In this document: positions 2,262-30,685 of the stretch, piece after piece
Position numbering within the stretch: position 1 is the stretch's first letter
Layout of the letters: each line of letters starts with the position of its first letter
From: Chitinophagales bacterium
GTDB lineage: Bacteria > Bacteroidota > Bacteroidia > Chitinophagales > UBA2359
Assembly (NCBI GenBank): GCA_020629335.1
Contig: JAHDDN010000012.1
Span: 1-30,685, forward strand
Direction of reading: 5' to 3'
Length of the DNA stretch: 30,685 bases
Made by a program: the position numbers and the translations under genes
The notes under the pieces: generated by a model
The model's input: the letters and a program-made list of their open reading frames with translations, nothing else
Databases searched by the model: none
What the model was told of the DNA's origin: nothing

Positions 2262-2483
2262 GGGCGTGCCCTATTTATTTTTTGGCCATCGTTGGGCCGA
2301 CACATCGGTACGGCCCCTACATACGATGGCCAAAAAATAAATAGGTCGGGCTGTCCGCTCTTATGTGGCTATGTCACTCCTACTCTGCTAAGTGCTGCTT
2401 GTCTGCCCTGCGGGCCAGCCATCGCATCACTAAGCGCCGTAAGTCGTGTCATAGACGCCACATACCGCTACCATCCCTCACGC
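2262..2483 (+). repeat. Modular repeat, copy 2 (complete, long-arm type)
   Basis: Anchor 1 (GGGCGTGCC, 2262-2270) leads into a perfect 23-bp inverted repeat, 2270-2292 against 2323-2345. Its loop holds a GC-rich mini-palindrome (2294-2320; stem GGGCCG/CGGCCC). Anchor 2 (TCGGGCTGTCCGCT) follows at 2346-2359. A second module is closed by TATGTGGC (2362-2369) pairing with GCCACATA (2457-2464), with a small CCC-TGCG-GGC hairpin inside. Anchor 3 (CCGCTACCATCCCTCACGC) is at 2465-2483. The copy starts 5 bp after the ligA stop codon and runs in the same direction. The open reading frame through it is in frame with the next gene but is not considered coding. Confidence 0.9.
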
Positions 2484-5441: not shown

Positions 5442-5582
5442 GGCTTAGGGATGGTAGTAGGGACCTAGCAGTGCTACGTCCGTACGGCGCACGGCCATGC
5501 GCCTTCGGCGAATGCTTAATGCATAATGATGAATGATAAATTTGTTTGTTATGCCATACTTTTACGAACGCATGGGAAGCCC
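5442..5582 (-). repeat. Modular repeat, copy 3 (internally deleted, short-arm type)
   Basis: Read on the minus strand, it has anchor 1 GGGCTTCCC (5582-5574), then short arms CCATGCG/CGCATGG (5569-5575 with 5495-5501) around an AT-rich loop containing ATCATTCATCATTATGC. Anchor 2 and the second stem are gone and replaced by unrelated GC-rich sequence (about 5458-5494, containing the palindrome CCGTACGG). The terminal CTACCATCCCTAAGCC of anchor 3 remains at 5457-5442. At 141 bp it is about 80 bp shorter than complete copies. Unlike them it opposes the gene in front of it, rsfS. Short open frames across it are considered non-coding. Confidence 0.75.
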
Positions 5583-10034: not shown

Positions 10035-10253
10035 GGGCTTCCCCTTTCTGATTTTTTTCATCGGCCCGTAGGGGCGCTACCTATGTGTGCGCCCTCCGAT
10101 GAAAAAAATCAGAAAGGGTCGGGCTGTCCGCTATTATGCGGCTATGTCGTTCCCACTCCACTAAGCTGTACTTGTCTGCTAAAGCCAGCCTGCGTCCAGC
10201 TAAGTTCCGTAGGTCTCGCCATGAACGCCGCATACCGCTACCATCCCTAAGCC
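10035..10253 (+). repeat. Modular repeat, copy 4 (complete, long-arm type)
   Basis: Anchor 1 is GGGCTTCCC (10035-10043). A perfect 23-bp inverted repeat (10042-10064 with 10096-10118) encloses a mini-palindrome at 10068-10094, with GGGCGC/GCGCCC-type stem. Anchor 2 (TCGGGCTGTCCGCT) is at 10119-10132. The second stem reads TATGCGGC (10135-10142) with GCCGCATA (10227-10234). Compared with copies 2 and 5 both strands have changed so that pairing is kept. Anchor 3, ending CCATCCCTAAGCC, is at 10235-10253. It lies about 30 bp after the preceding stop, in the same direction. Confidence 0.9.
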
Positions 10254-13202: not shown

Positions 13203-14334
13203 CTGTGTCTAATCCTCCAATGTGTTCTAGTGCTTTGTTTTTAATTCGTTGAATCTCATCATCGCTGGCTTTTTTACGGAACCAAGGATCGAGTTCTTCT
13301 TCTTCCTCATCTCTTTTTTCCCATTCCCCATTTGAGCTTGCTTCCTCCTGAGATTCATCATTCTCGAATTCTGCTATTTCTTCTGTTGCTTCATTTGCCT
13401 CCTCTAAGACCTGCTCAGTCGTTTCTACCGCTTCTTCAGGTATATCTTCCACCTCTTTGGTCACTATTTCCTCAGTTGTTTCCTCCTCTTCTGTGGTTGC
13501 TGTTTTATCCACTACTGCTTCCTCCGCCTCTTCTACTGTCTCTTCGGTTTCTGCTACTTCTGTTGTTTCAGTATCTTGAGTTGCTGCTGTTTCTTCTAAG
13601 TTTTCGGGCTGTTCGCCACTTGCTTCTCCCTCTAGGGTTTCTACTTCATCGGCAGTTGTTGGATTTTCTTCTTCTGTTTGGGCGGTTCCATTCTTAGAGG
13701 TACCATTTACTGCTACAAACTCTCCATTGACCATAGCACCTTTAACACCACTACCTTCTTCGAAATAATCGCTTGACTCCTCCCCTCCTATTTCATTAGC
13801 TGGTGGCTCAATATCTTTGAGCTTAGGTAGGTCATCAATGGAATTAATACCGAAGTAATCCATGAATATTTCTCCTACAGAATATAATAGTGGTCGGCCT
13901 GGGCCATCGCTACGGCCTGATATTTTAATCAGTTCTTTCTCTAATAGCTTTTGTACACCATGATCGCAATTCACACCTCTGATTTGCTCCATTTCTGCTT
14001 TGGTAACAGGTTGTTTATAGGCAATGATGGAGAGTGTTTCCATTGCTGCTTTAGAGAGGCGGCGCTTAAATTTTTGATTGACATATACCGATACCAGTTT
14101 ATGGTAAGCGGGCTTGGTCATAAATTGTAGTCCTCCACCTATTTCCACTAGTTCAAAAGGAAATTCTGGAGACATATATTGTAGTCTAATAGCCTCTAAT
14201 ATAGTGGCTATTCTTTCTTCATCAAACTCTTCTTTGGGGTGGAATTTAATTAAGCTTTCGCGTATTTCTTCTATTGTGATCGCATTTTCTGCCACAAATA
14301 TCAATGCTGTTACTTGTTGCTGAAGGTCTTGCAT
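13189..14334 (-). CDS. scpB: Segregation and condensation protein ScpB with acidic C-terminal tail
   Basis: ScpB binds the kleisin ScpA in the Smc condensin that organises the chromosome. Residues 1-165 form the usual two winged-helix domains (RRLSKAAMETLSIIAYKQPVT, then GVQKLLEKELIKISGRSDGPGRP and YFGINSIDDLP). The protein is 381 residues long, about twice the usual size. Residues 220-350 are low-complexity sequence dominated by Glu, Thr, Ala and Val. The tail ends in a short ordered-looking segment, LDPWFRKKASDDEIQRIKNK. The reading frame is unbroken, so this is not an obvious fusion. An ATG start is followed by conserved sequence. ScpA is not in the window. It overlaps the pseudouridine synthase gene by 14 bp. 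Confidence 0.93.
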   Translation of the reverse strand: MQDLQQQVTALIFVAENAITIEEIRESLIKFHPKEEFDEERIATILEAIRLQYMSPEFPFELVEIGGGLQFMTKPAYHKLVSVYVNQKFKRRLSKAAMETLSIIAYKQPVTKAEMEQIRGVNCDHGVQKLLEKELIKISGRSDGPGRPLLYSVGEIFMDYFGINSIDDLPKLKDIEPPANEIGGEESSDYFEEGSGVKGAMVNGEFVAVNGTSKNGTAQTEEENPTTADEVETLEGEASGEQPENLEETAATQDTETTEVAETEETVEEAEEAVVDKTATTEEEETTEEIVTKEVEDIPEEAVETTEQVLEEANEATEEIAEFENDESQEEASSNGEWEKRDEEEEELDPWFRKKASDDEIQRIKNKALEHIGGLDTDETE

Positions 14335-15381: not shown

Positions 15382-15599
15382 GGCTTAGGGATAGGAGCGG
15401 TATGTGGCGTATATGACGTGGCTTATGGAGCTTAGTGATGTGCAGGCTGGCCCGAAGGGCAGACAAACAGCGCTTAGCGGAGTAGCCGCGGCATAGCCAC
15501 ATAAGAGCGGATAGCCCGCCCTTTTCTAATTTTTCATTCGTGGGCGCACACATAGGTAGCGCCCCTACAGTCGAATGAAAAATTAGAAAAGGGAAGCCC
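15382..15599 (-). repeat. Modular repeat, copy 5 (complete, long-arm type)
   Basis: Read on the minus strand, anchor 1 is GGGCTTCCC (15599-15591). A perfect 22-bp inverted repeat (15519-15540 with 15572-15593) surrounds a mini-palindrome at 15542-15568 (GGGCGC/GCGCCC). Anchor 2 has GGGCTATCCGCT (about 15517-15506). The second stem is GCCACATA (15496-15503) with TATGTGGC (15401-15408), and contains a CCC-TTCG-GGC hairpin. Anchor 3, ending CCTATCCCTAAGCC, is at 15400-15382. It lies about 110 bp downstream of the nrdA stop in the same direction. Confidence 0.9.
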
Positions 15600-15669: not shown

Positions 15670-15695
15670 GGGCGGACACATAGGTCCGCCCCTAC
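15670..15695 (-). repeat. Free-standing GC-rich mini-palindrome
   Basis: GGGCGGAC (15670-15677) pairs with GTCCGCCC (15684-15691) and is followed by CTAC. The 26 bases are identical to 2-27 and belong to the same family as the loops of copies 2, 4 and 5, yet here no long arms surround them. It sits 12 bp after the nrdA stop codon. Confidence 0.85.
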
Positions 15696-25252: not shown

Positions 25253-25480
25253 GCGTGAGGGATGGGAGCGGTATGTGGCGTGATGAAGTAGCTTACGGAA
25301 CTTAGCTGGACGTAGGCTGGCCCGCAGGGCAGACAAGTACGGCTTAGTGGAGTAGCTGCTGAATAGGCACATAAGAGCGGACAGCCCGACCATGCGCCTT
25401 CGGCGAATGATAAATGCGTAATGATGAATGATTAATTGGCTTGTGTTGCGCAATTGCCTTTGCGAGCGCATGGGCACGCC
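25253..25480 (-). repeat. Modular repeat, copy 6 (complete, short-arm type)
   Basis: Read on the minus strand, anchor 1 is GGCGTGCCC (25480-25472), followed by arms CCATGCGC/GCGCATGG (25390-25397 with 25466-25473) around a loop of about 68 nt. The loop contains AAGGCAATTGCGC, ATCATTCATCATTACGC and GCCGAAGGC. Anchor 2 (TCGGGCTGTCCGCT) is at 25389-25376. The second stem TATGTGGC (25272-25279) pairs with GGCACATA (25366-25373) except for one position. Anchor 3, CCGCTCCCATCCCTCACGC, is at 25271-25253. Short open frames through it are not considered coding. Confidence 0.88.
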
Positions 25481-25564
25481 ATAATAATGATGAATAATGA
25501 ATTATAAACAATGAAAAATTTGGCTTGCGCTGTGCTGTTGCCTTTGCGAGTGTATGGGCACGCC
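25481..25564 (-). repeat. Half-copy of the modular repeat (left module only)
   Basis: Starting with GGCGTGCCC (25564-25556) it follows copy 6 closely: CCATACACTCGCAAAGGCAA, then CGCAAGCCAA, then AT-rich ATTCATTATTCATCATTA. It stops where copy 6 begins. Anchors 2 and 3 are absent. The left modules are thus in tandem. Confidence 0.7.
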
Positions 25565-25569
25565 CAATT

Positions 25570-30580: not shown

Positions 30581-30685
30581 GGGCGTGCCTATGCGCTCGT
30601 TAAAGCGAAGTTCACAGCACCAACCAATTTATCATTTATCATTAAGCCGAAGGCGCATAGTCGGGCTGTCCGCTCTTATGTGGCT
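30581..30685 (+). repeat. Modular repeat, copy 7 (cut by window end, short-arm type)
   Basis: Anchor 1 GGGCGTGCC (30581-30589) is followed by arms CTATGCGC/GCGCATAG (30589-30596 with 30653-30660). Compared with copy 6 (CCATGCGC/GCGCATGG) the second pair has changed from C-G to T-A on both sides. The loop has TTTATCATTTATCATTAAG and GCCGAAGGC. Anchor 2 (TCGGGCTGTCCGCT) is at 30661-30674, followed by CTTATGTGGCT at the window edge. It runs in the direction of vapC. Confidence 0.88.

Follow-up and report, generated by a model that had tools for sequence, protein, structure and literature searches.

Integron attC sites combine fixed anchors with a variable palindrome, are recognized as one folded strand, and lie in cassette arrays. 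The repeat family described here resembles them in its fixed anchors, its variable palindrome, and the recognition as one folded strand that we propose for it; its copies, however, are singly dispersed and not arrayed. A second point of comparison is BOX of Streptococcus, interspersed repeats that one paper describes as modular, with middle parts that are optional; BOX has terminal inverted repeats, carries target duplications, and has been proposed to be a non-autonomous mobile element (PMC3049150). Our element is likewise modular and interspersed, with optional middle parts and a proposed non-autonomous mobility, but it has no target duplication, and each of its arms is an individually paired hairpin. 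It also resembles the palindromic intergenic repeats of the REP/BIME and RAYT systems, as these are set out in one paper (PMC3733652), and GTAG-tagged hairpins lie nested in one of its arms (P3). The host element, however, is ~220 bp long, has no GTAG or CGTC tag at its ends, and does not track Y1_Tnp. A REP survey counts REP-like sequences by the thousand in two genomes of Flavobacterium, and hairpins of the present kind may be included in these counts. Finally, Flavo-1 RNA (Rfam RF01705) was described by Weinberg et al. 2010 (PMC2864571), and a review places it with the bacterial sRNA families of highest abundance (PMC9029176). The available parts of the literature on Flavo-1 and on interspersed repeats of Bacteroidota yielded no account of the stem (P1), the arm (P3), or the arm exchange described below.

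The window, that is, the whole 30,685-nt stretch of DNA that was analyzed, holds seven copies of this repeat and one fragment; four copies are complete, one is collapsed in P2, and two are cut by the window ends. A sequence-only reading had proposed the family, and it is real: the anchors were found where that reading put them, and pairs of anchor 2 and anchor 3 within 300 bp, with up to two mismatches, occurred four times in the window versus never in 100 first-order Markov shuffles. Its count of seven copies stands, but their completeness had to be corrected, the complete ones being those at 2262, 10035, 15382, and 25253. The three-way junction into which each complete copy folds lies on the strand running against the anchor order used earlier. 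Anchors 1 and 3 pair as a closing stem of 5 bp (P1), arm P2 occupies the stretch between anchor 3 and anchor 2, and the copy-specific palindrome is P3. On the folding strand the order is 5' T-(T/A)-Y-Y, P1 (GCGTG), A, GGGATnGnAGCGG, the P2 hairpin, AGCGGAnAGCCCGA, the P3 hairpin (CC...GG), one base, P1' (CACGC), and CCAAA 3'. The outer motifs, T-(T/A)-Y-Y ahead of P1 and CCAAA behind P1', are the end consensus of 68 copies from one relative, G003; because no U-run follows the fold on either strand in this consensus, an intrinsic terminator was rejected. A further reason is an ordinary-looking terminator hairpin, seen by eye beside one element site in both G003 and another genome, G531.

The first complete copy (2262-2483, folding on the minus strand) pairs 2264-2268 with 2479-2483 in P1 and has its P3 arm at 2270-2345 and its P2 arm at 2348-2477; inside P3, a GTAGGGGC-tagged hairpin is nested at ~2294-2320. 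The copy at 10035-10253 (minus) pairs 10036-10040 with 10249-10253 and has a REP-like hairpin nested in P3 and starting at 10068; in P3 of the copy at 15382-15599 (plus), such a hairpin ends near 15568. The copy at 25253-25480 (plus), with P1 formed by 25253-25257 and 25476-25480, has a P3 without REP and is adjoined by the fragment (25481-25567, plus), a duplicated anchor 1 with a partial P3 arm. The P2-collapsed copy (5442-5582, plus) sits between rsfS, which has an RsfS domain match, and a putative gene that we take to be ftsH; it retains P1 and P3, and its P2 is a small hairpin. The copy cut by the window start (1-46, plus) comprises the end of P3, with a nested REP-like hairpin, and the 3' strand of P1, and that cut by the window end (30581-30685, minus) comprises one P1 strand, P3, and the start of P2. 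The REP-like hairpins nested in P3 of copies 1, 2262, 10035, and 15382 are all GTAGGGGC-tagged. A free-standing hairpin of the same kind lies at 15670-15695 (minus), ~90 bp from copy 15382-15599.

Anchor 1 varies in step with the end of anchor 3, the two reading GCGTG/CACGC at 2262 and 25253 and GGCTT/AAGCC at 5442, 10035, and 15382; the two anchors form the closing stem, and P1 is swapped in the window as a unit. A covariance model (A2), trained solely on 24 copies from other genomes and then run on the window, recovered all four complete copies (E = 4.9e-13 at 25253, 6.5e-12 at 2262, 1.6e-10 at 15382, and 7.4e-9 at 10035) and matched the end-cut copy at 30659-30685 (E = 0.015); a weak match at 13602-13728 (E = 0.5) was taken as chance. 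The window has 33 ORFs of at least 80 aa, and the 20 that were scanned against Pfam included 17 with matches, mostly to housekeeping domains, and no transposase.

Folded as DNA, copy 2262-2483 reached -67.7 kcal/mol (z -10.4) on the folding strand versus -55.9 (z -7.4) on the other, and the RNA folds of copy 25253-25480 were unremarkable against shuffles on both strands (z -0.66 and -1.18); single-sequence energy is therefore insufficient, and the case rests on comparison between copies. We read 84 of them, 4 from the window, 60 from G003, and 20 from two further relatives, G001 and G006. An exact 5-base P1 partner stood 3' of P2 in 63 of 64 and later in 83 of 84 copies, a perfection that is partly by construction because the partner was sought by exact complement; by our own arithmetic, chance would supply an exact 5-mer partner within 170 to 180 nt in about one copy in six. 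In the one exception (L239), four of the five bases pair, by eye. P1 occurs as nine different sequence pairs among the copies read. The basal P2 pair is paired in 61 of 63 copies (A-U 51, G-C 5, C-G 4, U-A 1, A-A 2), and the pair counts of these 63 copies reveal that P1, this basal pair, and P3 all contain compensating changes. Mutual information among 59 G003 copies had a mean z of 20 for the 17 paired columns versus 0.8 for 1,593 other column pairs, with 10% of the unpaired column pairs exceeding z 3 and several unpaired neighbors or apical columns among the 40 strongest pairs. Conserved mismatched positions persist in the P2 core, where simple correction of the palindrome should tend to remove them.

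Mismatches in P3 are biased by strand. With the arms aligned without favoring wobble pairs before counting, G.T exceeded A.C on the folding strand of P3 by 106 to 35 in G003 and by 36 to 7 in G001/G006, in count cells that are not independent. For P2 the counts were 37 versus 18 in G003 and 28 versus 29, i.e., no excess, in G001/G006; the four copies of the window do not inform the comparison (2 versus 3 in P3, 7 versus 2 in P2). Counted per copy, G.T prevailed in 54 and A.C in 12, with 16 ties, and the excess is present whichever way the neighboring genes point. Rfam-form copies of Flavo-1 show the reverse, G.T versus A.C being 4 versus 21 in the Flavobacterium genome G180 and 2 versus 20 at one site, mainly at two fixed positions, and the difference at two other sites is not significant; the strand argument therefore holds for the three-way form only. 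Template switching at RNA hairpins can, according to the authors of one paper, also explain asymmetric pair frequencies (PMC8794818), and this account bears on our argument from G.T and A.C.

P2 is a Flavo-1-like arm with a fixed asymmetric core, and P3 is a cassette-like hairpin arm. At a permissive threshold, Flavo-1 matched P2 of two window copies with 24.9 and 24.8 bits, the gathering cut-off being 42. The second match covers the 5' strand of P1 and the P2 domain of copy 2262-2483 (2344-2483, minus, with the E of 6.5e-12 given above), which aligned to the full model, 1-76, in both the sequence and the pairing of the P2 core, the long loop being a local end. What is shared is the core GATnG...AGCGG / AGCGGAnAGC with short paired blocks, in a repeat that is interspersed and found in Bacteroidota, so the repeat is not wholly undescribed. 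The Rfam-form copies in Flavobacterium differ, by eye, in lacking P1 and P3 and in having a short P2 and other ends. No Rfam family recognized the element at its curated cut-off, either in the window or in any of 20 related loci; with a shared core but a score below the cut-off, the window element is not detected as a Flavo-1 member. Rfam miRNA and fluoride matches were set aside as due to chance.

Flavo-1 matches at E <= 0.001 occurred in 27 of 198 Bacteroidota genomes, 21 of them above the cut-off, and in none of 14 control genomes; the survey scored 22 candidates per genome, so copy numbers are lower bounds. The anchor of the three-way junction, ANCGGANAGCCCGACC, was found in 45 of 395 Bacteroidota genomes at 1 to 11 copies each, and since the reversed anchor gave single matches in 8 genomes, several of the 45 may be chance. 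Ten genomes were reached through FtsH-type relatives of the window (FtsH again being the name that we presume), and a strict exact two-anchor pattern counted 82 copies in G003, 16 in G001, 10 in G006, and 0 in the other seven; G002, at 0 by this pattern, later yielded at least two copies. A single exact anchor has 262 matches in G003 (3.4 Mb; 139 plus, 123 minus) versus 0 for the reversed control. The sequence-only reading had named rare anchors, or a single segmental duplication, as outcomes that would tell against a family; neither is seen here, given the copy numbers in these three relatives, the 262 anchors, and flanks that mostly differ, even if an upstream block recurs in some G003 copies. 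The exact 14-mer matches at least 120 viral stretches, and paired anchors, when 200 loci and the window were scanned, were found only in L003, L006, and the window. A blastn search with one copy gave nothing in plasmids or phages, and carriage by viruses, plasmids, or phages was rejected.

The two long arms vary independently of each other. In G003, P2 similarity and P3 similarity are unlinked (Mantel r 0.014, 788 of 2,000 shuffles as high, 58 copies; -0.01 and 0.018 with 57 copies), and within-arm coherence by the same test is 0.359 for P2 and 0.602 for P3 (0 of 1,000 shuffles each). The nearest neighbor by P2 had the same P3 family in 7 of 58 copies, against 4.6 expected, and the same P1 type in 36, against 32.9 expected. 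In the seven window copies with a readable P1 strand and a P3 that is at least partial, each P1 type is seen with each P3 family (nested REP present or absent), which makes up all four combinations.

P3 has been replaced at two of the three related sites read, one of them with a single matching flank. At element 3 of G003 and G531, the P3 arms are unrelated and both flanks homologous; at L263/L264 (G001/G006), the P3 arms are again unrelated, homology being shown for the downstream flank alone (76% over 149 bases). Element 1 of G003 and G531 has kept its P3 family (identity 0.78) and gained a nested palindrome in P2, and at a fourth G003/G531 site, cut by a contig end and partly read, P3 is still related. 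The palindrome in P2 of element 1 in G531 (L512), absent from the G003 ortholog, is of the AGACGTTGCGTGCAACGTCT kind, and GTAGAGACG...CGTCTGTAC hairpins are present in some P3 arms. By BLAST, two G531 copies that are not orthologs of G003 element 3 match the first 146 bases of this element at 93%; for the ortholog itself the figure is 84.5% of the P2 columns aligned, stretch and measure being not quite the same in the two figures. Outside elements, 14-mers from P3 were found at 33 places versus ~12 expected and words from P2 at 19 versus 14; two of the three strongest P3 places are elements cut at contig ends, and the third is unexplained. Given that P3 words are rare outside elements, other copies are a likelier source of the arms than stray hairpins are.

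We interpret the family, with a probability of roughly 0.6, as a non-coding, non-autonomous interspersed repeat of Bacteroidota that works as a folded strand and whose arms are exchanged by conversion or template switching. Copies would be multiplied by an enzyme that recognizes the folded strand, either as ssDNA or as a transient RNA. The long arms may be exchanged between copies by conversion or by replication template switching, and the fixed anchors bordering each arm could serve as microhomology for the exchange. A more specific version, which we put forward tentatively and hold to be less likely than not, is a one-strand mobile element of a new enzyme type, with a third arm swapped among hundreds of copies via the anchors and with Flavo-1 as its worn core. 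Neither an enzyme, in a search for Y1_Tnp, nor an autonomous copy was found: 19 of 20 suspected lone anchors were complete elements, and L449 reads N on its 5' side. At one syntenic site the element is present in G003 and absent from G531, where the site is ~280 bp shorter; CGCCCTCAA remains there, so that a loss is as likely as a gain. The earlier observation that no target duplication is visible was borne out in 68 copies, in which the longest flank repeat was 4.0 versus 4.1 with shuffled pairing, and the family in this respect lacks the target site duplication of a MITE of a DDE transposon. Should Flavo-1 indeed be an arm of a DNA repeat that is scattered over the genome, sRNA annotations need rereading, for the widely listed "small RNAs" of the Flavo-1 kind may be a DNA repeat of mobile type. 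A folded-strand repeat with exchangeable arms would also offer hundreds of parallel natural experiments per genome in hairpin exchange, in the upkeep of perfection, and in the copying of a folded strand by an enzyme without target duplication.

Three candidates had been left by the sequence-only reading, a non-autonomous mobile element, a structured RNA, and a chromosome-organizing site; the first two fit in part, the repeat being dispersed, high-copy, and structured, and the third is disfavored. As a functional structured RNA (an sRNA or a cis element), the class in which Rfam places Flavo-1, the copies would be transcribed and selected. The strong covariation and the one-strand wobble bias in P3 speak for this, as does retention in Flavobacterium. 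There, each site was sought in 121 genomes, and the best 30 loci, with the query genome G180 included, were read; the queries contained the element, which favored loci having it, and gene names were read off translations without a family search. By eye, the Rfam-form element is kept between udk and ftsB in 27 of 30 loci, between gcvT and nnr in 29 of 29 (one locus was without a flank), and between a putative mevalonate kinase gene and hmgR in 16 of 30, including one remnant and one degenerate copy; a strict end regex gave 22 of 30, 21 of 29, and 12 of 30. The copies at the first two of these sites are old, which we counted against the mobile-repeat explanation. An RNA is nonetheless unlikely in our view. 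In a Flavobacterium psychrophilum transcriptome study, Flavo-1 matches lie in sense, in antisense, and in many cases outside transcribed regions (PMC9723704), which argues against an sRNA gene with a transcript of its own, and unrelated inverted repeats stand instead of the element at one orthologous site. Moreover, 77 complete elements on 40 G003 contigs (545 kb, chosen for carrying copies), 65 of them outside crude ORF calls, show no preferred gene context (++ 19, -- 18, +- 13, -+ 10, the other 17 at contig ends). An excess of downstream genes pointing at the element (47 versus 23) in a cruder earlier set was not repeated in this one.

The Flavobacterium sites also differ in detail. The same orthologous element has different apical hairpins in different species. 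A second small palindrome, CGAAGTTCACTGAAC ... GTGAAGTA, is nested in the arms of the Flavo-1 element at two orthologous sites, at one in 6 of 30 loci and at the other in 5 of 29 (L344, L351, L353, L359, L365, L366, L373, L374, L376, L388, and L392). At the putative hmgR site, 13 of the 14 element-less loci (L405-L410, L412, L413, L419-L421, L423, and L425) have a TTGGAATT-type inverted repeat.

Folding as a single strand, the lack of target duplication, and GTAG-tagged REP-like hairpins inside the arms would suit ssDNA mobility driven by a Y1 HUH transposase of the REP/RAYT or IS200/605 type. Yet Y1_Tnp does not track the element, occurring in 13 of 18 entered carriers versus 13 of 18 entered non-carriers (14 of 19 versus 12 of 17 after G002 was moved); it is absent from the carriers G003 and G006, both MAGs that may be incomplete, and the tag is confined to the nested hairpins. 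There is no replichore bias among the 28 above-cut-off copies of the complete-looking genome G180 for any origin (best 17 of 28, with the terminus assumed opposite each tried origin), nor any GC-skew bias in G003, where skew is positive on the folding strand in 37 of 77 elements. These two results leave lagging-strand ssDNA insertion unsupported, and we consider movement by a Y1 enzyme very unlikely.

A neutral process in which replication template switching by itself makes hairpins grow and corrects them, with neither mobility nor selection, would account for P3 arms that are near-perfect and copy-specific, and the study cited above describes the process for RNA hairpins (PMC8794818). The mismatched P2 core, P1 strands ~200 nt apart, and 262 dispersed anchors, however, exceed local correction, and we give this explanation little chance. 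A chromosome-organizing or protein-binding site, which the dense spacing of copies in the window and G003 might suggest, is highly improbable, as 77 elements show no orientation relative to skew or genes and copy numbers among ten genomes are very uneven by one exact pattern (82, 16, 10, and seven 0).

Although the flanks of the G003 copies mostly differ, some copies have a common upstream block, and similarity in the upstream flank is linked to neither P2 nor P3. The block, AATCGTTCAAACGT..., stands in many G003 copies (L211-L250, e.g., L228, L229, and L233), and some copies have GATTGGATGATTGG runs downstream.
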